64,000 nucleotides of DNA. Origin: Paragonimus westermani (lineage: Eukaryota > Platyhelminthes > Trematoda > Plagiorchiida > Troglotrematidae). A model generated the notes under the pieces. The model was not told where the DNA came from. It saw nothing but the letters and a program-made list of their open reading frames with translations, and made no database searches. The stretch is taken from positions 29,585 to 93,584 of the forward strand of contig QNGE01001293.1 of NCBI GenBank assembly GCA_008508345.1, given 5' to 3'. The position numbers and the translations under genes are program-made. Shown one piece after another: positions 9,463 to 57,829 of this stretch (position 1 is the first letter of the stretch; every line of letters begins with the position of its first letter).

Positions 9463-9706
9463 AAAAGCCGTTTATTCGGTCGTGCCTAACGTGAGGTCAA
9501 CGGCGCAGTGGTCAACACGGTTGCCTCATGAAAGCTTGACCGGAGTCCAAATACCGGCCGTGGCAAGGGTATGCACTACTGATGAGCTCTAATGAGGATC
9601 AAACTCGAGTCTGGTGCTTCTTTTCGGAGGAGACTGGCTTGAAAGTCTATCTGAATGCGAATGTTGCGATAAAATATGAGTGATTTTCAACTTGAAAAGC
9701 CGTTTA
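9463..9706 (+). mobile_element. SINE family A copy with 12-bp target-site duplication
   Basis: The element spans about 9475-9694 between exact 12-bp direct repeats AAAAGCCGTTTA at 9463-9474 and 9695-9706. It has an A box (GGCGCAGTGG, from 9502), a B box region (GGAGTCCAAATACC), a hammerhead-like segment (about 9570-9620) and the family tail ending in TTTTCAACTTG. The ribozyme is damaged: the second core box reads CAAA instead of GAAA and stem II is mismatched. The flanking duplications imply insertion by target-primed reverse transcription. Confidence 0.85.
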
Positions 9707-15700: not shown

Positions 15701-18068
15701 ATTTAAAGCAAGTTGACAACGAACAAATCTGGATGTAAGCCTACACAAACAATAGTAGACAAACTATGACCGATGGTTACCACCTGATAAGCCGAACCAA
15801 AGCTCCGCGATCAATTTGTCAAAAGCGGAAGTTAGAAGTAGGGAACTGAGTATAAATTCTCATCCTCAGTCTTCTTGGATGAGATCGACTGCAGCACTTG
15901 TATGTCGCGACATTAATGTGAAATCCTAGAATATGGCGTGCTGATTCAATATTCTCATTGGACTAACAAATTAACTGAGTTTGAGATCATGGCGACTGTG
16001 GAATTCGAAAACTTGTTTCCAAGACGCGAAGATCGGTTAAAACACTTACTAGTGTTAATCTTGATTGATAGGCGTTTTCAAATGCGACTGATAGTTGCAA
16101 CTCGTATGGGTGCTTAAATTAATTAGACGAGATTTTTACTGATTTTTTTACTTGCATTTACCCAAGTTTATTAATGTAATTTTCAGTATGGGCCTAATTT
16201 GTGCTTGACATTAGAACGATATACAGAACGAGTCTTCGACCGAACACTCTTGATTGATTAAAAGAATGAGTAGAAAGGGTGTGTGCTTAAACAGACTGCC
16301 AGCCAGTATTAGTTTACACTTCCACGCATGACAAAAATCGGTTCGACAGGAACAGCTAAACGAACGAAGAATCCATGTCTGCATATCAATTGCCCAGGTC
16401 CGTGTGTCTGACTGAGTTGAGTATGAGTTGCTGACCGTAGAGCATGAGTATTTCGAGAGTCAAATCTTGATGATTGAAAATTATAGTTAGGACGGTGACT
16501 TTCTGCATTCCTCGTTCATACCGAAGTTGGTCATACTGCTTGGAAAATCTTTTTTAGTGTCCTCGAAACTTATTGCGTGAAAAGTAGTTCGGGTTAAATG
16601 CAATCGTGATTCTCTGAGAAGTACCTGCATACTCTGAACAAGTGCCAACAAAATTAGCGTTCTCACTTATGTACTCTGCTTGTGACCCTATATAAACTCG
16701 GATGAAATCGGGCTCATCAAACTATCAAGATGGACAGTAACGAAGAAGTAACAAACTGAGTCATCTAATCTACGTAGCAAATTCACATAACGTTGTGAAC
16801 CTGAAGATTTCTCAACAACGCTTAAATCTGATCTATTGGGTAATAGTTGAAAAAACACCGATTTCTTCCATGCTAGATTTGTGCGGGCACGATGAGTGAA
16901 GTATACAGAAGGACTATGTGGAACAGCCAAGATAGCTTACTATCTGAGAAATGTAGCACAGTAACAATGTGCTCCGTCCAGTCTTGTGTCAGTTTTTCTC
17001 AAGGTTTCCAGAAATTTTCTTAGTGAAATTGTCACTACTTCCGGTGCCTTAGATTGTGATACTTCACGACTGACCAACGAACCACGTTTTGCTGACTGTT
17101 CTTCTACCACTGGCTCATATTCTCTTTCAAAAATAGTACTGATGGTAGCACTGACCTTCGACCAGTATAACCACTATAAGTTATTCAACAAAGATAATGT
17201 AATAGCTGGAGTAAGTTGACCAAAAAAGCCCAAATGAACAAATGTCCCCTTTTGAGGTGAATTTATCTTTCATTATTTTAGGCATTGTTGACTCTTTCAT
17301 TCGCTCAGTTTATCGCATTTATCTAACAGATTTAACTTCGTGTCCAAAGAAAGTCGTTGTTAGGATGGAATCGTTTATACTGTCACAGACCTTTGGTACG
17401 GCAATCGTGGCTTATTTTGATGACAATAATATGTATGCTGTCATAATTTAACCACAAAATTATCGCTATTCCCTAGCCAACCTTTCATGAAAAACAGTTT
17501 CTTAGTCTTCACTCTTAGAGAATGGTTTTATGCATACCTTCAAACCTGACCAAATCGCGAAAGTTAAGTATTTCATCCCCCGCAGTTTTGTTCCGCCTTC
17601 TTTCCTGTATAACCACGTTATCTTAATTTGTTGCTCATTTTCTTGTTTTGAAGATAGGATGGCGCGACAAGGTCATGATACACATAAATAGATTACTATC
17701 CAAACTTCGGTTAAATTCAAGGTTTATAAAGTTTGTTAATTAAATGTATTCTTTTGTTTTACAAACGCAATTTTGCAGAAATTTAAAAAACTGGCGAAAA
17801 CGTCGTGCAAAACAGAATGTACGTTTATTGACTTGAAGAAAATTCGGATACAAATGTGGCCATGGCTGTTGTCGGTAATGTTGAAAAGCCTACAAGTTTT
17901 TATTTTGTAGCTCTCATGTGACATTCGGTGAGGTCGAAACGACGTTTTTATCCTCACAAGGCACTTATCGATTGCAGGCCAAAAAGTACATGGTTCTGAT
18001 GAACGCTCATGATTCAAAAATCCCGATGTATGCCAAAACCTTATTCATCAGCCGTCGACAGCCGGCAC

Positions 18069-18589
18069 ATTAAGTGGATTGATCGCGTGAGCAATATGGC
18101 AGTTCGCCGGCGCGTATTCCGGAAAGCTCGGGATGCGCAATCAATTGGTCAACTAATTACGTTGCACAGCTTGCGATGGTTCGGTCACGTGCTCCGTATG
18201 CCAGCTGAGCGTTTACCGTACCGGGCATTATATACTGAGGTCACTAACAGTTGGTTAAAACCGCGTGGCGGTCAAGCAACAACATGGTCACGAAATATAA
18301 AGACCTTGACTGCTCCATTGAGCAAAGTGGGCAAGCATCGCCTGCCTGGATGGGGTCCTCGTGATCACTCAAACCGCTGGTTAGATACGCTGTCCAAGAT
18401 GGCGATGTATCGCAGTCAATGATGTACCTGTATCCATAACACTTCTAGTTCTTCCGCTCAGTTTTCTCTTAGTATTTGCCGACCGTCTTAGTAACGTTTC
18501 CTTCTAGGATATTCCACGTCACTGTTGAGGTGAGCGGCGGCCCGAGCCACATTACGTTTGGACAGGCTCATGGCTGTTATAATGATGAT
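18069..18589 (+). mobile_element. 5'-truncated LINE (CR1/RTE-like) 3' end with TSD
   Basis: An open frame from 18069 to the stop at 18422 encodes the C-terminal end of a fluke LINE polyprotein: IKWIDRVSN, then LRWFGHVLRMPAERLPYRAL, RGGQATTW, LPGWGPRDH and WLDTLSKMAMYRSQ. The L-R-W-x-G-H-V-L-R-M and G-W-G-P-R-D motifs are typical of LINEs abundant in trematode genomes. Exact 12-bp direct repeats (GACAGCCGGCAC) at 18057-18068 and 18590-18601 flank it, so this is a recently truncated insertion. The 3' untranslated part ends in ATGATGATG, a short-repeat tail of the kind RTE-type elements carry. Only about 118 codons remain, so it is dead on its own. Confidence 0.88.
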
Positions 18590-22462: not shown

Positions 22463-24031
22463 CTGAGGTCAAAGAATACAACACAAAGAATACAATCGAG
22501 ATGTAGCAAACTTTGAGATCCACACAAGAGGTTAAAAGTTGTTTAAACTTGTTTCCTTACGCGTTCAGAAACATCTGTAGAAGCCAAAAATGTAACAGAG
22601 ATTTGGAACGGCCGGTATATTGGTTCTCAGTTACGTACCTCTCAGACAGACGAGAGACTCCGCTCTTAGTTCGACACGCTGAATTGTGAAAATGTGTACA
22701 GATGGTACAACTAAAGTGGAAACGATATTTTTACGGTGGACATTAAGAGGAATGATGGCCAGCATCAAGGGTGGAAGTCTTGGTTACCGGAGCGCGAACC
22801 AGTGAATGTGCGATTTTCCGCAGACCGGAACCCTCATTGTTCACGGAATCATTCCATAATTGCAAAACATGCAAGAGTATTAAGATTTAGAAACACAAAA
22901 TAATGTTCCATTGCAGTGTGTACACCATTCGCAAGAAAGAAAATTGCAGTTTGAAAACTTATTTAATTTTATCATTTACACTTCACCCCTTAGATTTGTC
23001 TTTTTGGAGGCTGTGCCCGGAATAATTGATCAGCATAACAGCGAACTCTTGATAACCCAACCTAATCAAACTAGTCTACCAATTAGTTATATAATACAAC
23101 AAAAACGTGCAAGTTAGTAAGGACTAGAAAACCTAAGAGGCTTGTGATTTACTGAAGATACACATTAGGTGTGCGATAACATGAAAAAGTTGGTTCATTT
23201 CTGTGATCTTCAACCAATTCTTTGATGAGATATTGGTCAAAAAAGAACAATGTCTGTGCCAGTTATATCGAGCTGCCTACAACTTATACCTACATGACCA
23301 AGGTTAGAATACTTAAACCTAGACAATTCCAGTGGTCATTACTGTCATCTTACAAATAATAAGTAGGTACTGTCACTTGTATGAATGAGCTGATCGCGCA
23401 TAGTCTTCAGTTTCCGCCTTCAAACAAGGCAACAGTGCTGTCACGGTAAAAAAAAGTACCGAGTAAAAGTCATCAGTTGATCAACCTGGCGCACTCACAA
23501 CGATAAGACAAATATATATCTCAGTAACGAAGAGTCATGTTAGCCCTCAATTATCAATGTGATCCAACAGAATGACGAGAGGTTTCACCAGACTCTCACT
23601 GATTCGTGTTATACCTACCTGCTACCCATTTTTTGAGAAGAAGTAACGTTAAGCCCACTCTGGCAAATCAACACTAACAACACCTAGGGAAATAAATTTT
23701 AAAATTTACTAGGGGAAACAACGAGCAAGCCTGAATTTGAGACAACGGATCAACAGCTCATAATAAAATGGGCAACAGGTTGACGTTTAGAATCTATTCA
23801 ATCAGCACATAAATCTGTGTTCATCAGAGAATTGTACAAGAGTGCATGCCCTGAAGCAACCGAGTTGAATGTTTTATTCGGTTATTCTCACCAGAAGAAA
23901 ACGATATCCAAGGGGTTTACTAGAGAGTAAGAAATGCTTAATATTTTTTGCGTTACTCGGGCATCCATTACTTACGTGATTCACATGAAATTGAAGATCA
24001 CACAAAATAAGAACTCAACACTTAAAATGAT

Positions 24032-24290
24032 GTGCATTTGGTAACCTCAGCAGTATCAAGAGATTACTGATGAGTAGTCGGGAATTTGGTTTATTTTCAA
24101 ATTGAACATCACTCATATTTGATCACAGCTTGAGCATGCAGATAGACTTTCCAGCCAAAGAGGCTGACTGGAAAGTCTATCTGCATGCTAAAGCTGTGAT
24201 CAAATATGAGTGATGTTCAATTTGAAAATAAACCAAATTCCCGACTACTCATCAGTAATCTCTTGATACTGCTGAGGTTACTGAATGCAC
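24032..24290. repeat. Near-perfect 259-bp palindrome built from family A tails
   Basis: The arms 24032-24154 and 24168-24290 are reverse complements with 3 mismatches in 123 positions and no gaps, around a 13-nt centre. Each arm contains the family A SINE tail (GGAAAGTCTATCTG, then GATCAAATATGAGTGATGTT) plus a further outer segment (CCCGACTACTCATCAGTAAT). It is therefore an inverted dimer of the SINE 3' region without the tRNA head or ribozyme. In the M8 pre-mRNA it would fold into a hairpin of about 120 bp. Confidence 0.95.
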
Positions 24291-24441
24291 ATGCACCTTA
24301 CAAGTAAACTTAGCAAAATATTCTTCTACATGCACAGAATCGTCACCTGTGCACGACTAGCCCGCAGAGAACAACTGATTTTATAGCCTCAGACAATCGA
24401 TTAGAAAGTTTTCAGTGTCTTGAAATGCACTTCAATTCTAT

Positions 24442-27700: not shown

Positions 27701-30700
27701 TATAACAACGAGTTACCTTCAAAGTTCATTTCCGAACCAACCGAATCTGTAGATCAATGCGGATGACAACAGCACTTGCAACAACCGTGAAGAAACTCAG
27801 TCTGCTTCATACCGGATGAGTGCCAGCAACGACCAACCCAGCCGTGTTTTTGGTAAATGATCACTGACAAATGCGTACTACCTATGTTATCACACTGTAA
27901 ATTTAAAGGAATTAATGATCTTTAGATAGATTGGGTCACTGCTCAATTCTTGCGAGTGTTAGGGGCATCTGCACTGATCTGCGAACGTAGTTGAGTCTAG
28001 ATTCAATCGTACAAATAAACCACAGATGAGGTAAGGCACCAAAATTTTTGCTCTTCAATTTGTATTGCTGAGTCGTTTTGTCTTTATTTCCACTCTCCAG
28101 ACTGAATTAGCAGAGCTGAATCAATGATCATTGTGGTACGAAAAAAGAGCACTCATCAGTCTGGCCACCGGTTTTACCGCGTGTCAACTGGGTAACGTAA
28201 ATCTACACAAGACTTCAAAAGACGTAGGTTTTGCAGTGTTGTGAGACTCATTCGAACGTCCTCGTTTTATGACAGATATGTTGCCAATATGAGACAAATT
28301 TCAGTGGACTGTACACTGCGCAAAACAAACATTTGTCTAGTTGGTGCCTTCGGTTATTAAGCATGGCAAGGGAGCAGTCATTCAGCTCTTCTTAGTGTAA
28401 ATCACACTTGGTATTTCTGTAAACAGTGCCATAAATGTCCGACAAAACCGGTTCCCATCGTGTATTCGGGATAAAAATAAATCAACAGTCTGTCACATCA
28501 TGAACAGATGCCCACATCTTGGGTGAGTCACATCAACAGCAGAAGATATGGAGATTGTGACATTGGACAAAGTTTACATTGGGTTGTAAACAATTCGCTG
28601 TCATTAGTTCACGACCTAAAAATCAGGATTTTCTTTCACCTCGACAACACTGACGAATAAACGGTCGACGAATATGATGATAGTTTCACCAGATAGTAGA
28701 GGTACCGGCTAAATGTAATTGTCGTCGGCAGTAAATCACTGATAGGTCTGTTACTAGTTGTAATCAAGTAAATCGATAGAAATGAAAGAAAAAACGGGAA
28801 CTGTGAAAAAGTCATTGTGGTAGCTTGCGATCTTGTCTGATTGGGTTTGATTTTTTGTCACTTTTAATAGGACGTAGGTTTAAATCTGGTGATCCATAGT
28901 GTTTTTTTTAAAAAATTTTGAACATGTTCACCTAGTGACCATAAGCCTTACTCGGGACAGTCAACAATGGACTACTATCACATACATTGTCCTCTTTACA
29001 ACAAACCCTAAGAAATTCATTGATAGCTCTAAATTTGTGCATTTCGCTGTTTCGGACAAATAGATTATCAGAGGACTGAACTGTAAATGAAGATGATAGA
29101 ATATAAGGCTTAATTTAAACAATGCAAATCACTTAGTCGGCCAGTGTAATCAACACACATTCATTTTAGGGTCGTGAAAGATTTTATGCACCCAATGTAA
29201 TTTGTTATTGCCGCAGACCATTGTCATGGGACTATGTTCAACATGTAAAAGGAAGTTGACATTGTCACAGAGATTGAGAACATAAAGAATTCCGGAAAAA
29301 TGTGATCGATATGTGGTAATAGGATGAATAAACTATGGGAACAGTTGTTTCTCTAAAGTTATTAGAAATATGTTATTCACTCATAAAGGTATCATATGAA
29401 ATTGTCGAGTGGCTGTTTTGTGATAACCCTCCTACGAAGAATATATCAAAATTGTGTAATTATTTTTCATATACTACTGAATCTTGTATGGCTGCGTATC
29501 CACCCCTCTACAATGAATTGGGTAATTTATCTGTGTCATCGAGCGCTCAACGACACGCTCTTTGACCTCAAATATAGACTCTCATCATCAGCTACTCCTG
29601 CTGCACAGTCGAATGACCATGTCGCCTCATCGGTAAGCACTTTCGCGGCGTAACTTGGTCTTATCGCAACGTCACCGAGCCCCGTTGCACAGTCCATTGG
29701 AGTGTTCGAGTGGACAGACATGACGCAACACCTAACCAAATTACACAAATACAATCTACCTCTAGGTAAACACCGAATCCTCTGTCACCGTGGTCAGCCG
29801 TTTGTGGTCAAAATTAATAGACAGCTAATACAATGAAAAACAACCCCATCTGATAAACTCGATTGCTTGTCCTCAGTGTCTACTGAAATAAGTTTTCTCA
29901 TTGGTGCTTCCTTGGGCATAATAGACAGCTTGGTCCGCTGAAAAATTTACTGTGGAAACTCGAGTGCATTGAGTTCGCCTATAAAAGACAGCTTACCTTT
30001 TGTCCTTAAAGTACTATAGTAATGTGGTCTGTACGAGTAAACCATACTCGAGCCATACATCTGGTGTCATTCGACAGAAATTGAAATCAGCTTTTTTCCT
30101 GTCGAAACTGGGATATTCTACTGTGCTGTAAGGAAAGCATGTATCTAAGGTGTACGAAATGTGTACGTAAATACTTGGAAAACGAGGTGACTAGCTCCGC
30201 ACAAAGGATTCGAATGAATTGTTAACTTCAGGCCAAAGGATGCATCAACCTGCCTTCATCAGGACAGCTTTTATCGTTGAAAAGCGGACAAAACAGAACA
30301 TGATAATCAGAAAGCTTGCAGTGGACGCAACAAGACTGAGAAATGCCAATCGTGGCTTAAACTAGTCGTACAACGTGACATAATGATGTCACAACAGAAT
30401 TCGCTAACTGCGTAATAAGAATCAAACGGCACAGTATTGCACAGTTAACACGGGAAACCTTATACAGAGTTGAATTTTTTTCCTTCTAAGTTGAGATTTC
30501 GTCTACTTTAGAAATACAGCGTTCCATTGTCTAACGGTTGATGAAGAATGACAGTAACAGTACACTCCAGAAAAGGCATATTTTTTCCTAATTTACTCAT
30601 TTTGGACCCGCTGACACATGCCTTGTGGTTATCAACACTCTAATGCATGTTAATCACTGAAATAGCTATGCAACTTGAACATGGTACAACTAGTCGTAAT

Positions 30701-30734
30701 GTTTGAAGTCCCATAGACATTTCAGTCAGCCCTT

Positions 30735-30960
30735 TTAAAAAAGAATCACTAGATTCGAGCTTCGCTCTTGTTAGAGCTCATCAGTAGTGCATATACTTTC
30801 CACGGGTAGGGTCAGAACACCGATCATGCTTTCATGAAATAACCGTCTTGACCACTGAGCTATTGTCCCCAGATATCAGGCACGAATGAATAATCGTGTG
30901 CAAATCAGATGTTGGTATGGCCCAGCAAGAGCATGGTAGTTTAGGCCATCACAGGAACTG
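30735..30960 (-). mobile_element. SINE family A copy, minus strand
   Basis: The reverse complement shows the A box region (AGCTCAGTGGTC), the B box region and the ribozyme segment CTGATGAGCTCTAACAAGAG. Stem II is intact, but the second core box reads GAAG rather than GAAA. The cleavage triplet GTC has become ATC, and stem I has lost a pair. It lies in sense orientation relative to the M8 gene and should not self-cleave. Confidence 0.82.
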
Positions 30961-33141: not shown

Positions 33142-33824
33142 CTGTTTGTAGCGACAATAAAAATAGAAGAGGGTGACATTAAAAAAAGCCATCTTCATAG
33201 TAATGTTTAGAAATTGGTTTCGAATTTCCCACCTGGTAAAAGTCGGGAGGAAAACGGGAACACTTTTTCACTAGCATAAATGTGTGACGTTACGATTCTC
33301 TGACGACCACTTCCAATTCCTCCGACTAAAAACAGGGGAGTACTATGAAGATCCTCTTCAACAGGATCGGTCGTGGATACCAACATTGGGTGTTAGAGAA
33401 AACTTGGTCCTGACAGTCGGGCCCTTGAATCATTTGGCGGATACGAAATGAAGTGGAATGGTTGGACAACTGAACTTCAGACTTTTGATGCGGATTCGTC
33501 AACCAGCTGGTAAAATGAAAGTCATGTGGGGGCGTTCGATCCCTGCTGCCGGTTCGCACTAGATCGAATCACGAAATTTTCATGACTAGATCTTTCCACA
33601 ATAAAACTGCATGAGTTTTCGATTGCTTCAACGATCATGAGAGCTTGATTGGTGACGTGTTACCTGAGCGTTTAATTCGATTTATAACGTCACCCGTGAG
33701 TCACCACATATTTCGAGGGAGATCCTAATGCATCACTGATCTAGTTGCTGCTCGGAAATGGTGGGAAAAAACGGTTGAGGAGGGGAAACCAGCGGAGGCG
33801 GTTTTCCAGACAACTCTAAGACTT

Positions 33825-34180
33825 TCGATTATTTAATTTTAAGTTGAACACCACTTACATTTGATCAAAGCTGTCGCATTCCCGTAGACTTTCCATCCGG
33901 CATCTTTAAAAATAAGCATCAGATTTGAGGTAGGCTGTTGTTAGAGCTCGTCAGTAGTATATATTCTTGCCACGATGGAGATTAAAACTCCGACCGTCCT
34001 GTTATGAGACAAATACGTTTACCACTGTGCCACTGACTTCATACTGGGCACGATCAAATGATCATATCTGAATGCCTGACCACTTTCGCTTGTGACTACT
34101 GATCAGGTTGCCCGATCGCATCAGTGGGAGACAGTTACAGTCTGTCAACTCCAATCGACAATCTCTGTCTACTCACCAGT
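33825..34180 (-). mobile_element. SINE family A, long-form copy
   Basis: The reverse complement runs from a 5' extension (CGATTGGAGTTGACAGAC, then GATCGGGCAACCTGATCA) through the A and B boxes and ribozyme region to the tail TTCAACTTAAAATT. The same 5' extension is present in the 42.8-43.3 kb copy, so it belongs to the family. The ribozyme is dead: the GAAA box is replaced by CTAC and stem II is broken. Confidence 0.85.
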
Positions 34181-35594
34181 AAACCAGTAAATCTGTCTGC
34201 AGTTTCGTAGGCATAGTGTAAAAGATTCCCTAATCCTGTAGCTCACTGACCACCTTTAAGGTTACCACCTCAGTGTTAAAGTGAACGGAGTATTTTCAGC
34301 TTGTTATTGGGTTACCAGTGATGCATCACAGGGTTTCATACTAAGACATTTGCCTTTTGTTCTGTTTATGCATGTAAGTCCACAGCCTGTAAATTCCCCC
34401 CCCTCGTTATTACATTCCAATGACACTAAAATTCGGCGTATAGCAAGCAAATTGGCTGGAAACAAGGAGTTACAGAGTGGTTTAAACGTGTTACACTGCT
34501 GGGCCTATTACTTAACACGGAGAGAAGTAAAGTGAAATAAATCCATAAATTGGGGATGACTGTTTCACATGACCTTAGCATTTCTTCCAGCGGTGCGTCA
34601 GTAGCCAGGAGAGTCAAATTTGCTGTTTTGGTTACTCACTAGGCTGTTTGAGCAGTTCCATTCAGGCTGTTTCTCTGATGATTTTCACTTAGCCATTGCA
34701 CCCCCAAAAGGAAAAGTACAATATGGAATTACAAAACAGGTTATAACACTGATTTTAATACGCTATCCAGATAGGCTGCCTACATTGGGGCAGTTCTCAG
34801 TGTGCCATCGTCAGCTCAGAGAACTGATTGTGGTATTTAGAACGCTCCATCAATCGGAAAATCTCATAAGAAATCTAACAGTGCTTACCAATAACAGCCG
34901 TTCCAGCAGTAGCTAGCCAAATCGATAACGTCAAATAATCTGTGTGACTTTCGGAGAACACTCATTTAGCGTCCGGATGTGTACAATCTGTAAAATTCCA
35001 CCACTCTATCGTGAATATGCCATCGGTAGGTGAACTTAAGTGCAGTTTCGAAGCACATATTCGGGACGGCAGATCAAGCTGTTAGAAAAATCAATTGTCG
35101 GAATCATCGTCGCGGAGTGAAGATAAGTTCAACCTCTCAAAGTTGTTACTAGCCAGCTGTTATCTGCCGTGTGCTGTATTGTGGTTGATAATCAGTGGTT
35201 GAGTTTCTGTTCCACTCATCATCCTTTGACTTCCTCATTCGCAACCTTTCTGTTGCTAACCCGATCCATTCACCTACCAATTTCTCTTCTTTTTGGACCG
35301 TCCATTACAGATTCATATGTACGCGAACTTTCTGTAACCTGTAAATCTTCCATAAATCTCATGAATCGATCAAGCTGGGGAACCAGTTTAAGAGTGAACA
35401 TGCTAACGGTTCCTGGCACTATTGTCCCCAACCACTACGAACCGATCGTTCGGAGAAGTGTGTCAATCCCACGAAGGTGTTTACCAATAACACCAATTCA
35501 TCACACGAGCATTATAGGATTTTGGTTAATGTAGATTGATCAATCAGGGTTGATAGCGGTTTCTGTATTCTCAAAAACTTCTCGACTTGCTCAT

Positions 35595-35850
35595 TCCACA
35601 AAGAAACACTACGATTGCGTTCCGTTTTTGTTAGGGTTCGTCGGTAGTGCATCTCTTTGCTACGGCTGAGATTTGATTTGCGGTTACACTTTCATGAGAC
35701 AAACGTTTAGAACACTGCCACATTAATCTCACATCAGGCGTGACAGAAGTATCACTTTCGAACGCTCAATTTCATTCGCGTGTGAATACTCTGCAAAACG
35801 TCCGGTCACCTCCAGAAAATACAAACTGTCCTGTTAACTTCAACCAAGGA
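35595..35850 (-). mobile_element. SINE family A copy, decayed
   Basis: The reverse complement retains CACTACCGACGAACCCTAAC, GGAAC and TAGTG, which are recognisable but mutated ribozyme boxes with stem I still paired. The A box region and the 5' extension (GAACGCTCAATTT region on the plus strand) follow. It lies in sense orientation relative to the M8 gene. Confidence 0.75.
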
Positions 35851-36192
35851 CTTAACGACTAGGACTGCTTTTCAACTTAAGGCAACAGAAATCATTGACT
35901 TGACCTAAACAGAATGATATTTTGGTTACTAGTAATTGATAGGAGGATTTTGGTTTGAAGACATTCAAAACTTTATTACTGGAAGTATTTACATGGAAAA
36001 CATCAACATATGAGCCTAGTGTGTAATAAACTAAGTCTGTAGACAGTTGAAAGAAAGTATAGATCACAACCGGTCCAAGATCTGAGTTTGCAATTCAACT
36101 AAAATAACACACATAATGGTGTGTGCGGGGATTATATTTTTTTCATAATAGTCAATTGCTTAAATCTGTTAGAACATTATTTGATGTCATAA

Positions 36193-37110
36193 ATTGAAGT
36201 CACAATTCATTTTGACTTGTTTTTTAACTTTCTCAATAATATCCACCCCAACTTATCTTTATCTCACGAAGTTGAGTCGAACAATAGTTTACCTTTTTTG
36301 GATGTACTCATTACTAGACGTGCAGATGGTACTTTACAACGTTCAGTTTACCGCAAAGCAACTTGGGGTGGTCAATATCTGCAGTTTTCCAGTTTTGCTT
36401 CTATTGCATACAAACGGGGTTTAGTTAAGACACTGTTTCAGAGAGCCAAGCGCATTTGTACTCCGGATATTCTGAAGACAGAACAGGAGTTATTGAGTCA
36501 AACCTTACTAACAAATGGATACCCCGACAAATTCATTGAGGCGCATAATACGGTGAAGAAAAGCACTGAGTTCAAACTGATGGCTCAAAAGTAGGATGTC
36601 TTCCTATTCTTGCCATTCAAGGGTGACCACCTAGCCAACAACATAGAGGACAAATTAAAGTCTGCGCTGGCTCGAACGTATGCGGCTGCGCAGTTGCGCC
36701 TATTTCATTCCACTAGTGGACCAGTTCTCCGCAAACGCAAAAGTAGCATGTCAAACTGTTCTGTCTCCCATGTTGTGTACCAGTTCATTTGCAGTTGCAG
36801 TGACGTTTACGTAGGCAGAACAGACCGACAACTAGCAAAGCGAGTCGCCGAACACATCCCGGAGTGGTTGAAACATCAGATGACGCACCAGTCCCAACTG
36901 GTTGCACTGACTACTCGAAATCCAACGTCATCGATTGCTAAACACTTTATGACAACAGATAATCATGTTGACTCATTAAGCACATCCAAGATATTGTTGC
37001 GCAACCGAAACCCGAAGTTTTTAGCTTTCTGCGGAGCGATGCTCATTCGAACTTACCAACTGGCGTTGTGTGCCCAGAAGTGGTTGAAGCAACCCGTCGG
37101 GTTGCCATGA
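36193..37110 (+). pseudogene. Penelope-like element: RT C-terminus plus GIY-YIG endonuclease
   Basis: Two open segments in the same frame are separated by a single TAG at 36592-36594. The first (from about 36217) encodes the end of the reverse transcriptase, with NNIHPNL, SLPFLDVLITRRADG, SVYRKATWGGQYLQFSSF and NGYPDKFIEAH. This F-L-D-V/L segment and thumb-type tail is typical of Penelope-like retroelements. The second (to the stop at 37110) starts FLFLPFKGD and contains CSCSDVYVGRT, RVAEHIPEWL and a late histidine and asparagine region, which is the GIY-YIG endonuclease with its Penelope-specific C-x-C spacing. The catalytic fingers and palm upstream are missing because an in-frame stop (TAA at 36190) closes the 5' side. 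Such elements are known in schistosomes (Perere-10). Confidence 0.9.
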
Positions 37111-42251: not shown

Positions 42252-43070
42252 TTCCTTTTTGACACATTACCTGAAAAACGAAGTGAAAGTATAAGTATTT
42301 ATCGGTCTGCATGGAACGATCAAGGAATAACAAAATCCTTTTTTTTCTATCTGTCCCATATCCGAGGAAGTGATTTGCTTTAAATATTTTGTAAAAACCC
42401 ATCTAAATATTCATAACAGGTTCTTTTCAACGGAGGTATAAAACCACGTATAAAGATGGTACACAGGCGAAAACGGACGTTTTCGTTCAAGTAGAATAAT
42501 CCAAGGAAATGTACCCACCCAAGACCAAGGTGGTTAAACGACGACGAAGTTACTAATTATGAAGATCTCGAGTGGGTTGAGAAGACTGGTGTTCTCTTCC
42601 AAGTTAGATTACTTGCGATCACCAACAAATTCGCTGTCGGATGTGACCACCGACTGCACTCACTGACATATGTGCACTCACAATATTATTGATCCACCTA
42701 GTTAGCTCTTCTCTATAGCTCTTCTTCGAATGTATTTTCATCTCTTGGAATTTTCTTGGACAATACTGCTGAGTAGTCGGGGATTTGGTTATTTTCAAGT
42801 TGACCATCACTCACATTTGATCGCAGCGTTCACATTCAGGTAGACTTTCCCCGGCTACTCATCAGTAATCTAAAATATCGCCTTGCAGGTTTAATGAGTT
42901 CAGTGATCTCGACCTGTCTCGGAAGTCCTCATCACGGGGTTATCGATTGGAGTTAACAGACAGTAACTGTCTCCACTATCGAGACGATCGGGCAACCTGA
43001 TCATTGCTCACATGCGAGATTGATTGAGCGTTCAAATTTGATGATTCCGTCGTGCCTCATGTGAGGTCAA

Positions 43071-43126
43071 TGGCGCAGTGGTCAACACGGTTGCCTCATG
43101 ATTGGAATGGCCGGAGTTCAAATCCC
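43071..43126 (+). promoter_or_regulatory. Internal RNA polymerase III promoter (A and B boxes)
   Basis: The A box TGGCGCAGTGG at 43071-43081 and the B box GAGTTCAAATCC at 43114-43125 fit the tRNA-type consensus (TRGCNNAGYNGG and GWTCRANNC), with about 34 bp between them. They would drive transcription through the ribozyme just downstream. No T-run terminator follows directly. Confidence 0.8.
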
Positions 43127-43143
43127 GGCCGTGGCAAGCATAT

Positions 43144-43188
43144 GCACTACTGACGAGCTCTAATGAGAGCGAAACTCGAGTCTAGTGC
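43144..43188 (+). ncRNA. Hammerhead self-cleaving ribozyme, intact core
   Basis: Stem I is GCACTA (43144-43149) with TAGTGC (43183-43188). Core box 1 is CTGACGA (43150-43156). Stem II is GCTCT/AGAGC (43157-43161 and 43166-43170) closed by an AATG loop. Core box 2 is GAAA (43171-43174). Stem III is only 3 bp (ACT/AGT around CG), followed by the GTC cleavage triplet, with C17 at 43182. All conserved core positions are met. The very short stem III is a known feature of SINE-borne hammerheads, which may act more efficiently as dimers. The predicted cut is between 43182 and 43183. Confidence 0.85.
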
Positions 43189-46100
43189 TTCTTTTCGAAA
43201 GAGGCTGGCTGGAAAATCTATCTGAATGCGAACGCTGCGATCAAATGTGAGTGATGGTCAACTTGAAAATACTGCTGAGACCAAATATTTTGTACACAAT
43301 ATTATATTTCCATATTCGAGGCAGATTATGTAAGGATGCCTGAGATATTCTTTCAGGTCACTCAATAGTTAATGACATACCAGACCTCACACCGCCGACT
43401 TGTAAAAACCAGCAGCATCCTACCGAACAATCTTTCGAAAACGCATCTCTCGGTTACTGTATTACAATACTCACAATATTGGAAAGGTCTCCAAATGCAT
43501 ACAACGAAAACTACTTCTCTTATCTACATAAACCATAGGCAATCACCGCATGCCTTGTGCATGGAAAACCACGAAGTAACTTATGAAGTGGTGACAAATA
43601 CCTAATGGAATACTGATCAACTGGAAAAAGGTGAGGCTAACTACTGCATGCAAATGAGCGTTCTTGTTGTGACTGCGTATACAATATTGGTCAGATTTCC
43701 CAACGAATTAAACATGGTGGCAGCAGGCGTTGGAAAAACCACAGTCACGGGACATGTTTTACTTCGTTCAACCAATCATGAATTTTACCGTCACTACCGC
43801 TTAATCCTGAATTTCATCTCATCGACTAAATTCCCGTAAATGAGAGACTAATAACAGAACGGAATGAGAAGGCAAAGAAGTCATAGCTTCTTGTCCATAA
43901 ATAGCCCACAGTTATCTCAATACCAGGAAGAACTAGAAACATTAGGCACTCGAGACTTGTGGAACCGTCAGCCTCTATTAAACTTGCAGTAAATCCGATA
44001 AATGTGTTTAAAAACAACATTCAATGACTGCTTTGGTTTACGGAGACGGTAACCCGTAAGAAATGGAAAGCACTTCTTTGTGTACAGAAAAATGTGTTCA
44101 TTATCATCAGATTTCCTCAGTACAGAATGCCTTGAAATTTGTGTGAACACTGTTTTCGTTATTTCGTTTCACAGTGCTTATTAAACTTCGCTGTATTGAC
44201 CCCCGAACCACAGCAAACACCCGATGAAATGCACTCCCGGGAGATATAACGTGCAGAATCCCTGACTGGCGCAAGTGAGATGACCATTGTTTTAATCATC
44301 AGTCGTCCTAACGTTTGGGCGATGATTACACCCATGCGATTCAACCGAAACGTTTTTTAGCATATTTCACAATCTGGAGGACTATTTACAATTTGTCTTT
44401 TTCAAACCTGCGTTCACTTACAGGTTCATAAGCATACGCCTTTATAAAACTGGCTCATTAATGTAAGACTCGATTGGGAAATATCGGTTTTCACAGAACT
44501 GAGTATTCCCGACAAAATACTTGTTGGTGATCAATCATCTTGCGTCAGACAGACTATATTCAATAGCCAGTGTCACGCGACTGATGCCACCGCTAGCGAT
44601 CGATCACGTCACATAACTATTAACAAACACCTGTTTTTGCCGATGGAAATTGATATAAATACATAACTGGACAAAAATGAATGAAACAGTTGGCACTGGT
44701 CAGTTGGCTCGGTTATCAAATGAGTAGGGTAAGGTTGTCACGTGCAAAGCATTGTAATTTGCAGGTGCGCCAGCTGGTCACCCCGAACGAACAAAGCAAA
44801 CGGTTGCTGTTGCGGCTGTTACTTGCACTTCGGTACACAGAAGTTAGTCGTTCTAGGATGACAAAGTCACTTTCCAGATGCAAGGTAGTGATGATTCGGT
44901 CCACGCACGGGTTGCTCGTTGGTCAACTGGAAGTAGCGAGTTCATCGATTTTGGATCAAACCATGGGTGGTTGGAGTTACCCGAACTTACTTCAAGAATA
45001 AGTTCTATCAGTACTGTGCATCCAGAACTACCGTATTCTCCTAGATGATAATTCTCCAGCTGACTGGCGTAGCACTGCAGGAAGTTGAAACTGTTTTACG
45101 GAGGAAAAAGGCTCTCATAGAGTCAAATCCATACGAATTGTGATGTCTATCCTATGTCCGGCTGCGCAGGGAACTCGACACATGGTGTTTAGTCAGACAT
45201 AAAGACGACATATATAGCTGATTGGTATAAAACTCGAGCAGTCAAAGAATTCATTCAACGATTCGGCACCCAGGTGATCGATGTCAAGAGAAGATTACAC
45301 ATTTTAAACTGACAGGAGCTTGGGACAAGAAGCGTTCTCTTTTCCACATCAACTGTCAGTCGAACAGCCTGCACCGAGTGGCTGTAACCTTTTGTTTCGT
45401 CTACCAGCGTGCAATGTACTGGTGTAGACTGGGTTGCTAATCACCTTCTTATATTTATCAAACAGATTACGTTTACTCATATATAGTCACACGCTGACTT
45501 TTGTTTTTGCAATCAAGAATGGAAACAAAATTACTTAGCTAACCCGAGAACTCGTCTTAACTCAAATGTGATTTCAATATGCTCAGGAAAATAGGTCGGT
45601 CTAATTCCCACGGACTGCTAACAGCACTAGCCTTTTTAGAGGACTAATTGTAGTGGTGATTCTGGGAAATCTTTATTTTTCCAAATCAAAAGACTGTATG
45701 TAAGCGTGAGAATAAAACTTACATTTTCTGGTAGTTTGTAACACACTTTAGTTTATGTTATCTACGTATCGGTAAGATGGGTGCTTCGAAGAAATCTGTG
45801 TTTACATATATCTGAAACGTTAACTTGTGTCAAATAAAAATCACCCATGTTGTGAGATGATAGAAAATGAAGTGAACATGTTTGTAGAGTCCAGTAAAGT
45901 GAAAACGAAGAGATTGGCTACAGGCAGAAGAATGGAGAACAGAAAACTATGATCCCCAAACAAATGAAACAAACTGACTGGTTGTTCGCAGTAGACTTTC
46001 AAAACTGTATGGTTCCTGCTGAATATAAACCGTCTCGCATAAATGTGATTGATGATGGGATGGGACATTCGGGACAAAAAGAACAAATACAGAAAAACCG

Positions 46101-51795: not shown

Positions 51796-51940
51796 TTAGG
51801 TTGCAAACGTTTCATCACCAAGCGACGTGACATCATCAGTGCGTAAGTGTTTCAGCTCATAGTTCTGAGCTCACACTATATGCTCAAAACTATACGCTGA
51901 TGATGTCACCTTGCTTGGTGATGAAACGTTTGCAACCTAA
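51796..51940. repeat. Inverted repeat with nested hairpin, Penelope/hammerhead-like boxes
   Basis: The arms 51796-51845 and 51893-51940 are reverse complements except for a short run of mismatches and a 2-nt indel. Both encode, on the right-arm sense, CTGATGATGTCAC and GGTGATGAAACGTTTGCAAC. The loop contains a second hairpin (GCTCA/TGAGC inside GTGT/ACAC). The CTGATGA and GAAAC boxes resemble hammerhead core boxes, but the intervening stem would leave one extra unpaired base and no stem I is evident. It is a fold-back repeat of unknown family. Confidence 0.85.
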
Positions 51941-55534: not shown

Positions 55535-55800
55535 TGTAAGTTGAATGTCACTCATATTTAGCTACAGTTTTGGCAAAAAGCAGGCATTTCAAGTTGTCTT
55601 TTTAAATAGCAGCACAAGATTCGAATTTACCTCTTGTTACAATTCCATAGTGCTGTATATAATTGGGAAAACTTCCCACAAATTAGTCATCTTGAACACT
55701 GTCTTCACAACAGGGTGATTGAAAAGTTTTCCTGAATGTGAAAGCTGCGATCAACTGTAGCTGGTGTTCAGTCTGTATCAGTCAACATTCAACTGGTTAT
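55535..55800. mobile_element. Degenerate inverted family A remnants
   Basis: The left part (AAGTTGAATGTCACTCATAT onward) is a minus-strand family A tail continuing into a badly decayed ribozyme region. The right part (TTTTCCTGAATGTGAAAGCT, then GCGATCAACTG) is a plus-strand tail. The inverted layout is the same as at 24.0 and 31.8 kb. Confidence 0.65.
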
Positions 55801-55899
55801 CACCAACGAAAAATATCGCCCGGAGAGCTTAATTAATTTGCATATTTCAGTTTTATTAGGAAATCCTTATTTTGCAGTAATTGACTAGAGTCGACATGA

Positions 55900-56155
55900 A
55901 TACTGTTGTATCCTATCTCGGGATGAACCGACAACCTGAACATTATTCACAGGCGAACGTGTTAGATCGGTTAGACGTGACAGTTCGCTCCTGCCTAAGG
56001 CTGGGTTAACGTCACAGGGTTGCCTCAAGAAAAGGTTAGCCGGATATGTACTATCGAAGGGCCATAACAAGAGAGAAACTTGAATCCGGTGGTTTTGTCC
56101 CAGAAGGTGTTTGCATAGGAAGGAAATACTAAGACAAACGTTGCGATCAGACAGT
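55900..56155 (+). mobile_element. SINE family A remnant
   Basis: Weak but ordered matches to the family run from the 5' extension (CCGACAACCTGAACATTATT) through the tRNA-like part (CACAGGGTTGCCTCAAGAAA) and ribozyme region (GAGAGAAACTTGAATC) to the tail (CGTTGCGATCA). The first ribozyme core box is lost. Confidence 0.65.
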
Positions 56156-57829
56156 GACCAATTTACGTAGATATGGGCTAAGCAGACTAAGCATTAAATA
56201 AACGAACCTTCAACGATTCACAGTTTTAGGGTTCATATACAAAATAGTTGGACACAGGGGTTACAGTAGTGCGTCACCAATATCAACGCTGGGTTTCACG
56301 CCATTAATAAATACACCATCAGTCCTTTAGTTCAAGCGGGTTCTATCCCTCATACTTGTATGAATGAACGTTCAGTTTTTGAAAAGAAACTAAACTAACG
56401 GTGCAAACCCTCTGATAGCAGATTTGAACGGCGGTTACCTAAGTCGCATCTGTCTCAGTTTTGCAATCTAAGAACCTCCGATGGGAGTTTTATTTTTCAA
56501 GTCATATGACCGATTAGGGTTTGTTGAATGAAAGCCATAAAAATAAAAATTGACAGCTGAAACTATTTTTATCGATCGTGAGGGTACGGAGGCTCTAAAG
56601 TTCTTCCTCTGTAAATGAAAATATTAGCCATTCTGGTAAACACATTATATTTAGTGTAACATAATTAGGGAGATGAAGAAAGCGTTGTACCGCAAAACTC
56701 CAGTCTCCACCATACAATAATTAGATTCCACTGATCAGGACCAGACTACTGACCGATCGACAAGGCTGGTGGGAACCGGACATTGTATAACCAGATACCG
56801 AGAGAAGATACACATGACCAGATTACGAGTAGATACATCTCGTTCGAAAGAACCAGCAACAGTGGACGAGTCCCAGGAAATTTTGTCAACTAATTATGAT
56901 GCTTTTCGTGTCAAAGTTATGAGACTGTCTTTTTCTACCAATATGATTGTTTCATTCGAACTCGAACCATCCTTTTTTAGACACAATGCGCTAGTGCCTG
57001 ACGTACAACAGACAACCACAAATAGAAAGTCAGTGTTTATAATTCAGGAACGCTAATGAAGAAAAGCATAAAAAACAGCCACCAGAGAAACATACTTTGG
57101 TTTTGATGGCCTTCTCTTGTGCCTGAGGAATACGTGGTTCCGAGGTTCAGTGAGAAGCTTTAAAAGACATTTCGGCAAGCTCTTGGCAAATCAATCGATG
57201 ACGGTTGAGTCAAGCTTACAAGTTCTGTTGTGGGACGTCTTTGCTGTGGGCCTTTGAATGCTATAGCTGTATACAATCGTATATTCGTTAGTCAAGTATG
57301 TTCCAAAGGCTTCGGTCAGAGGTAGATAGGGTCTATAAGTCAATCAGTTCAACATATGTAATCCATGAACCGAAATTGCCATTGCTGTGATGTTGGACAA
57401 ATGGAGGATGATAAACACCGCTACAAATTACGTAATAAGATGAAATCTTCTAAATGTGCCGACATGGAAGTTTCAATGTTGTGTGCTACCCAGTATGTCA
57501 GTACTCTCTCATTCCTAGTGGTCAGTGCACTCCCAAACCATCGGCGATTGCCAGTCATGGGGTTTCTCGCCTGAGTTCATTAACTTTCTTCTAATATCGT
57601 GCAGTTATAGGGGTCGCGTAGAGCAATTTCCTAATCACATGACCAATGAATGCTGGCCCTGTCCAGCGTGAACTAGGCTGAATTTATGTGAGATTGCATG
57701 TTTACTCAGAAAACGTTGTCTTATTTGTATTTTACCTTTGAAAATCTTGTCTTATGCGCTAGTGCATAAATTCTGTACCCGTTTCAATTGGATAGATTCA
57801 CTGGTCGTCTTGATCTCTTGTTACTCATC

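Follow-up and report, generated by a model that had tools for sequence, protein, structure and literature searches.

A hammerhead-bearing SINE of the fluke Paragonimus westermani with insertion ends of the type left by Penelope-like elements

INTRODUCTION

The mode of movement of hammerhead SINEs and of animal retrozymes has been an open question, and a repeat in the genome of the fluke Paragonimus westermani carries scars that address it. In schistosomes, the Sm-alpha and Sj-alpha elements join a tRNA-type head to a type I hammerhead in a short, very abundant repeat, according to the portions of the sources available to us (PMC2770079, PMC8490949), and the Sm-alpha unit is given there as 335 bp (PMC8490949). 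Metazoan non-LTR retrozymes are described, in the accessible parts of two papers, as repeats of 150–450 bp with a type I hammerhead, tandem copies, G+C below 50% and target-site duplications (TSDs) of more than 4 bp, with platyhelminths among their hosts (PMC7229834, PMC7761336). Penelope-like elements (PLEs) have been proposed as the movers of retrozymes on the grounds of common hammerheads, tandem copies and co-occurrence (PMC7229834, from the same excerpt).

Two PLE systems provide a standard of comparison. The excerpt available for Pen2a_Av of Adineta reports two direct pLTRs with an adjacent inverted one at the 5′ end, a TSD of 9 bp and a 31-bp tail that is not always present (PMC3846280). 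For an anole PLE studied in vitro, reverse transcription starts at two adjacent internal sites that bound the tail, and both target strands are cut and extended (PMC11167929).

The DNA analysed here, called the window throughout, is a stretch of 64,000 nt (64 kb) from contig QNGE01001293.1 of assembly GCA_008508345.1, and coordinates are those of the window unless unit positions are named. A preliminary description had singled out positions 43071–43188 as pol III boxes followed by a hammerhead. We describe the insertion that holds this segment (locus A), its relatives in the genome and the ends that they carry.

SEQUENCES AND SAMPLES

The assembly searched was that of the same fluke genome (823 Mb). 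With window positions 42872–43275 as the query, all 40 scored places, out of 3458 first-look candidates, matched nearly the full unit. These 40 loci, namely locus A and 39 others, are the best matches to locus A rather than a random sample, and the selection biases conservation among them upwards. Two of them, L040 and L068, have a common 5′ flank (a duplicated region). Abundance was estimated from 264 kb of this genome, 13.8 kb of it N, made up of the window plus twenty samples of 10 kb each (the 264-kb set).

RESULTS

Pol III boxes and hammerhead. A tRNA-like head (43061–43137, + strand) contains an A box (TGGCGCAGTGG, 43071–43081, + strand) and a B box (AGTTCAAATCC, 43115–43125, + strand), assigned by the box consensus. 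The A box is exact in 40 of 40 loci, as is GTTCAAATCC in the B box. By ARAGORN, neither the window nor any of 22 loci contains a tRNA, and the Rfam tRNA model gave no match to the head. The head does have a weak antisense match (E 3.2) to the plastid ycf2 5′UTR model, which presumably overlaps trnI-CAU, and an anticodon-loop-like CTCATGA at 43095–43101, whose anticodon-like loop reads CAT.

A type I hammerhead ribozyme (43144–43188, + strand) starts 18 nt past the B box. Its core consists of CTGACGA (43150–43156), GAAA (43171–43174) and T43181-C43182, just ahead of the predicted cut after 43182. Stem I (GCACTA/TAGTGC) has 6 bp, stem II (GCTCT/AGAGC) 5 bp and stem III (ACT/AGT) 3 bp with a loop of 2 nt. 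The score with Rfam RF00163 (Hammerhead_1), 34.7 bits (E 6.2e-5), is barely above the gathering cut-off of 34, and this is the sole gathering-level match within the window. A strict search for core plus stems found one match in the window and none in 100 dinucleotide-shuffled windows (both strands). Folding energy was unremarkable for the 57-nt hammerhead segment alone (z −1.23) and for a 72-nt stretch from a young copy (z −0.32). A TTTT run adjoining stem I (43192–43195, + strand) may, from its sequence, serve as a weak pol III terminator. The preliminary description, which had read tRNA-type boxes, the 18-nt spacing, an intact core and stems of 6, 5 and 3 bp from the letters, is borne out by both the sequence and the type I covariance model.

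Of the 40 loci, 36 have the exact 45-nt hammerhead in their main unit. Three more differ solely by C7 to T, at a core position that tolerates any base, and L069 lacks G12. Covariation was counted in 28 distinct 55-nt rows, 6 of 23 older rows having been dropped for length. In stem I, two-sided changes are more numerous than in shuffles (4 against 1.0, with 4 attained by 3 of 500); the excess is slight at most in stem III (2 against 0.7; reached by 72 of 500) and absent from stem II (2 against 2.0).

Unit, abundance and age. The unit is 431 nt long and consists of leader, tRNA-like head, hammerhead, tail and a 31-nt linker, which can be arranged head to tail. Unit positions 1–400 correspond to 42872–43271; the linker follows, and then position 1 of the next unit where one is present. 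The G+C content of the repeat is 47.8%. A single-sequence profile search of the 264-kb set gave 41 matches, or ∼1.3e5 per genome, a figure to be read as of the order of 1e5 since one insertion can give several matches and many are old fragments. The other 39 loci match the locus A unit at 94–96%. Differences from the majority over 400 nt number 0 in 2 of the 40 copies, at most 3 in 19 and 17 in locus A (for L068 the ungapped count gave an artefactual value, owing to frame). The repeat is abundant and, because 2 of 40 copies are identical to the majority over 400 nt and 19 are within 3 differences, recently active.

From 136,546 first-look candidates, 74 were scored with the Rfam type I model; 42 matches lay in the fluke's own assembly, 35 of them above the cut-off, and the 14 control genomes had none. 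Pattern scanning gave no match in viral contigs; among genome contigs a 17-mer occurred in five bacterial or archaeal places, below chance by rough reckoning. Seven of the eight best Rfam matches fetched in the own genome belong to a second family with a tRNA-like part and a hammerhead (GTGGTG-CTGATGA..., palindromic stem III ACAGCTGT; L006–L011 and L013), and head-to-head inverted copies of it lie in four of the seven loci (L007, L009, L011 and L013).

The insertion at locus A. The preliminary description had stopped at the boxes and hammerhead; these stand, and the whole insertion is larger, extending from 42774 to 43267 between 12-bp direct duplications of AATACTGCTGAG (left, 42762–42773, found blind; right, 43268–43279). 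The preliminary description had noted neither the TSDs nor the inverted piece at the 5′ end, nor that 3′ ends fall at two alternative sites, as described below. The inverted piece (42774–42850, − strand) is the reverse complement of unit ∼340–420, i.e. the 3′ tail and part of the 31-nt linker, and the inverted repeat that it forms is 61 nt long at 95%. It aligns out to 42764, so that its outer ∼10 nt overlap the left TSD and the border is ambiguous. Next come the last ∼21 nt of a linker from an upstream unit (42851–42871, + strand) and the leader, unit 1–169 (42872–43040, + strand), matched nearly in full length at 40 of 40 scored genome places. Beyond head and hammerhead, the 3′ tail (43189–43267, + strand) ends near GAAAAT, here called 3′ site 1. 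A fold of the 431-nt unit (z −1.67) hinted at complementarity between leader and tail; 270 of 1000 shuffles equalled the alignment score, no better than chance order would give, and this pairing was dropped as a unit feature.

A pol III-boxed, hammerhead-bearing SINE in this fluke genome is therefore supported, as the preliminary proposal of a Sm-alpha-like self-cleaving SINE in another fluke had it, with self-cleavage predicted; the family-specific flanks that it had expected are there as well.

3′ ends, inverted pieces and TSDs. Among the 34 non-tandem copies, 3′ ends fall at unit 398–411 in 21 (site 1) and at 424–438 in 13, with none in 412–423; the two sites (unit ∼400 and ∼425–431) are 26–31 nt apart. 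The remaining 6 of the 40 copies run into a next unit in tandem. No long poly-A or short-repeat tail was seen in the 3′ ends of the 40 loci.

A 5′ inverted piece of the element is present in 17 of the 40 copies, with varying inner ends. Its outer end is visible in 14, the other three pieces running off the fetched stretch. Twelve outer ends align to unit 425–431, one to 398 and one (L067) to an internal position, 127; L065 is counted with just 2 flanking bases, and locus A with an end that overlaps its TSD by ∼10 nt and may truly lie at ∼420. If ends were uniform across the unit, 12 of 14 at the second 3′ site would have a probability of 3e-20.

Exact direct repeats of 7–14 nt bound the outermost ends in 17 of 28 testable loci, compared with 27 of 1075 mismatched pairs, in a test that tolerates a few element bases and in which a lone 7-nt repeat, as at L058, could arise by chance. 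It left out 12 of the 40 loci, the six tandem ones and L034, L049, L056, L064, L067 and L068; in L067 a 14-nt repeat was found by eye. The TSDs enclose an inverted piece in L037, L039, L043, L045, L052, L053, L071 and locus A, so in those loci the inversion is part of the same insertion.

5′ ends and the predicted cut. None of the copies seen begins precisely at unit 312, the predicted cut, and the idea that 5′ ends are direct fossils of hammerhead cleavage was rejected on that ground. They bunch at unit 317–330 (43188–43201), 5–18 nt past the cut. In young copies, 4 of 20 5′ ends lie at unit 321–330 (p 0.001), in a list that counts L040 and L068 once and omits L056 and L059, whose ends are off the fetched stretch, upstream of the cut. 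In the 264-kb set, 6 of 41 matches begin at unit 317–324 by alignment (L027 is nearer 329 on reading), and 4 of 41 near unit 168–173. Of 22 independent copies without inversion, 18 start within unit 321 to 10 and 4 further upstream. Direct copies that cross the predicted cut (L056, L059, L060, L064 and L072) and at least six inverted pieces that do so (L035, L043, L049, L063, L065 and L071) must have had templates that were uncut there. The 317–330 cluster sits in a possible CUUCUUU-UCG-AAAGAGG hairpin immediately after the TTTT run.

Penelope-like elements of the same genome. The window holds a decayed PLE copy (36193–37107, + strand) that comprises the end of a reverse transcriptase (RT) region and a putative GIY-YIG region. 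It had no Pfam match, and a protein search with the window PLE fragment gave no match. Its endonuclease region matched the own genome at all 150 scored places, of 23,908 first-look candidates, and these carry open frames of up to 844 aa, the decayed copy being a relative of these open-frame PLEs. The 844-aa frame has an RT domain and 66% identity over 98% to a protein of Dicrocoelium dendriticum; homologues of the PLE frame, in the best 120 of 678, include proteins of Dicrocoelium, Trichobilharzia, Paragonimus and Schistosoma. Two families, PLE-1 (tandem period 2588 bp) and PLE-2 (with an inverted pLTR), both contain PF00078 (RT). A putative GIY-YIG motif was read in them by eye, without a Pfam match; PF01541, the GIY-YIG endonuclease family, occurs in 2 of the best 120 of 678 homologues.

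PLE ends were all sorted by eye. The direct PLE-1 ends include L073 and L075, although these do not contain the exact string used to find the others, and exclude the minus-strand motif of L074, which belongs to an upstream inverted piece. Of 14 direct PLE-1 3′ ends, 9 are at a site 1, 4 about 27–30 nt further and 1 tandem; of 15 PLE-2 3′ ends, 6 are near site 1, 8 about 25–31 nt further and 1 unclear. The PLE-2 copy C643 is built like locus A, with an inverted 5′ piece of 101 bp that extends ∼25 nt further at its outer side than the direct 3′ end does, and with a 12-bp TSD. The single inverted piece of PLE-1 in these loci, that of L074, has its end at site 1 rather than at site 2. No sequence common to the SINE unit and the fetched PLE-1 or PLE-2 was found, the RT-start region included.

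A minimal motif resembling a hammerhead, its stem III palindromic (TGTTAACA, ACATATGT), was identified by eye in both PLEs (L079, L080 and L081–L082). It lies ∼33 and ∼22 nt upstream of the first 3′ end site in the two PLEs by eye, as against 89 nt from predicted cut to site 1 in the SINE unit; an equal distance from cut to RT start in SINE and PLE was thus not borne out.

Other copies and elements in the window. Self-comparison of the window revealed, besides a number of partial pieces, four further copies with head and hammerhead (at 9.5, 30.8, 34.0 and 35.7 kb). The hammerhead core is broken in all four. Two are short: 9470–9698 (+ strand), which starts at unit ∼169 and has GAAA changed to CAAA, and 30669–30896 (− strand), which starts at unit ∼168 with A15.1 changed and scores 32.1 bits with Rfam HH9 against a cut-off of 52. 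The other two, 33786–34164 and 35508–35956 (both − strand), are older long copies. An older copy at 55702–56156 (+ strand) consists of truncated tail, linker, leader and head. At 24030–24292, two tails lie head to head in a palindrome with 128-nt arms that are 97% complementary; the palindrome continues beyond the ends of its two SINE tails.

Positions 18003–18422 encode the C terminus of a LINE ORF, RTE-like as judged by eye. Its closest named relatives are two proteins of Paragonimus westermani, with 74% and 83% identity in alignments that cover 63% and 50% of the query, and Paragonimus, Clonorchis and Opisthorchis proteins are among its 14 matches. Together with the homologues of the PLE frame, these proteins place the host among the digeneans. 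A long hairpin at 51805–51934 (− strand) scores 38.7 bits with MIR161 against a gathering cut-off of 90; a MIR161 gene was rejected by that cut-off, and the feature is an inverted repeat.

DISCUSSION

A SINE probably inserted by PLE machinery. The element is quite probably a non-autonomous retroposon of ∼431 nt, inserted by a PLE reverse transcriptase through two start sites and both target strands. We infer movement by PLEs because the two 3′ ends, the 5′ inverted pieces that begin from the second site and the TSDs match the PLE signature; at every point that can be read from DNA, the SINE copies agree with it. The Sm-alpha-like hammerhead SINE, or retrozyme, thus most likely moves by PLE machinery, with cleavage predicted and the partner PLE putative.

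The following course would account for the copies. Pol III would start ∼30 nt upstream of the A box, some copies beginning at unit 168–173, and longer RNAs that bear the leader would come from read-through of a tandem neighbour or from an outside promoter. The hammerhead would cut multimeric RNA into units. The PLE reverse transcriptase would then begin to copy the RNA at two adjacent internal sites, primed from both cut target strands, the long cDNA giving the unit and the short cDNA of the other strand the inverted piece, and the two cDNAs would join. The element would then stand to PLEs as tRNA SINEs stand to LINEs. Several observations run counter to this account: the want of a common PLE sequence, the unequal distances from the cut site, the 5′ ends that bunch at unit 317–330 and not at the cut, the internal outer end of L067, the cut-crossing copies and L074; the choice of the 40 loci by best match also weighs against it.

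Other explanations. Hammerhead-cut monomers might be ligated into circles that act as the template, the mobilising enzyme being secondary. We hold this as a tentative alternative, and one compatible with insertion by PLEs. The type I hammerhead, the 431-nt unit and the tandem next units in 6 of 40 copies speak for it, as does the retrozyme model set out in the available part of PMC7229834, and the cut-crossing copies suit either circles or uncut multimers. Circles as the sole template would spread 5′ ends over the unit, yet 18 of 22 fall within unit 321 to 10, which is somewhat better accounted for by a linear RNA that the upstream hammerhead has cut than by circles alone.

A tRNA SINE moved by a LINE of RTE or CR1 type, its 5′ inversions made by twin priming and the hammerhead riding along, is unlikely. 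TSDs of 7–14 nt suit LINEs as well, an RTE-like ORF lies within the window and the internal outer end of L067 is what twin priming by a LINE would give. Twin priming predicts scattered internal starts, though, whereas 12 of 14 inverted pieces have their outer end at the second 3′ site. To our knowledge LINEs do not usually show tandem units or a pair of discrete 3′ ends, which counts against this reading, as does the lack of a long poly-A or short-repeat tail in the 40 3′ ends. LINE 3′ ends were compared with the unit within the self-comparison of the window.

That the hammerhead is a decayed passenger without a role we regard as quite improbable. The core broken in 4 of 5 main window copies would fit a passenger, as would stem II covariation no higher than in shuffles and the finding that PLEs with a mutated hammerhead remain capable of insertion in vitro (PMC11167929). 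Set against these are the 45-mer, exact in 36 of 40 young copies and changed just at C7 in 3 more, an identity that youth alone also explains, and the stem I two-sided changes, 4 against 1.0 in shuffles.

A palindromic MITE or foldback DNA transposon with an acquired SINE tail would account for tail-only palindromes such as 24030–24292, but it is exceedingly unlikely and was rejected, since the inner ends of inverted pieces vary, 3′ ends are of two types, TSD length varies and the tail lies 3′ of the hammerhead in the same direction at 40 of 40 loci (themselves chosen by such a unit).

Relation to known systems. The fluke repeat resembles Sm-alpha and Sj-alpha, compared by description, in that pol III boxes and a type I hammerhead occur in one abundant repeat. 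It differs from Sm-alpha in length (431 nt against 335 bp) and in its head, called tRNA-Gln there in the portion available, whereas ARAGORN calls no tRNA here; the best named transposable-element relatives of its host are those of Paragonimus and Dicrocoelium. The PLE-type ends seen here go without mention in the available portions of the Sm-alpha and Sj-alpha descriptions. With retrozymes it has in common a repeat of suitable length (431 nt), the type I hammerhead, tandem copies, G+C of 47.8% and TSDs of 7–14 nt; pol III boxes and PLE-type ends set it apart.

Like the PLEs Pen2a_Av and PAc, as far as the excerpts describe them, it has an inverted piece at its 5′ end, tandem units, TSDs of similar length, a hammerhead upstream of the RT start and a tail of ∼31 nt that may be present or absent and is delimited by a second site of RT initiation. 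In contrast to PLEs, the SINE has no ORF, its hammerhead is a canonical three-stem one rather than the minimal PLE form, and it has no sequence in common with the two PLE families checked.

Pol III-boxed hammerhead SINEs of schistosomes and the PLE proposal for retrozymes were already known; what is new is the insertion anatomy. Among the papers listed from the open-access literature, we recognised none that describes a hammerhead SINE of a non-schistosome fluke or a SINE with PLE-type ends.

Meaning. The fluke hammerhead SINEs would, we are inclined to think, form a separate partnership with PLEs and not LINEs, one that combines pol III, self-cutting RNA, reverse transcription from two internal sites and priming on both strands. 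The second family, with its different stems and inverted copies, suggests that such a partnership arose more than once. Through their PLE-type ends, the proposed link between PLEs and retrozymes becomes a matter of structural observation, and the scars, near base resolution in young copies and accompanied by open-frame PLEs in the genome, make the PLE proposal directly testable. In addition, the repeat provides a plentiful natural substrate with which the initiation of cDNA by PLEs, and their use of the two target strands, can be studied. If this account is true, each SINE insertion would be a built-in record of the PLE mechanism.
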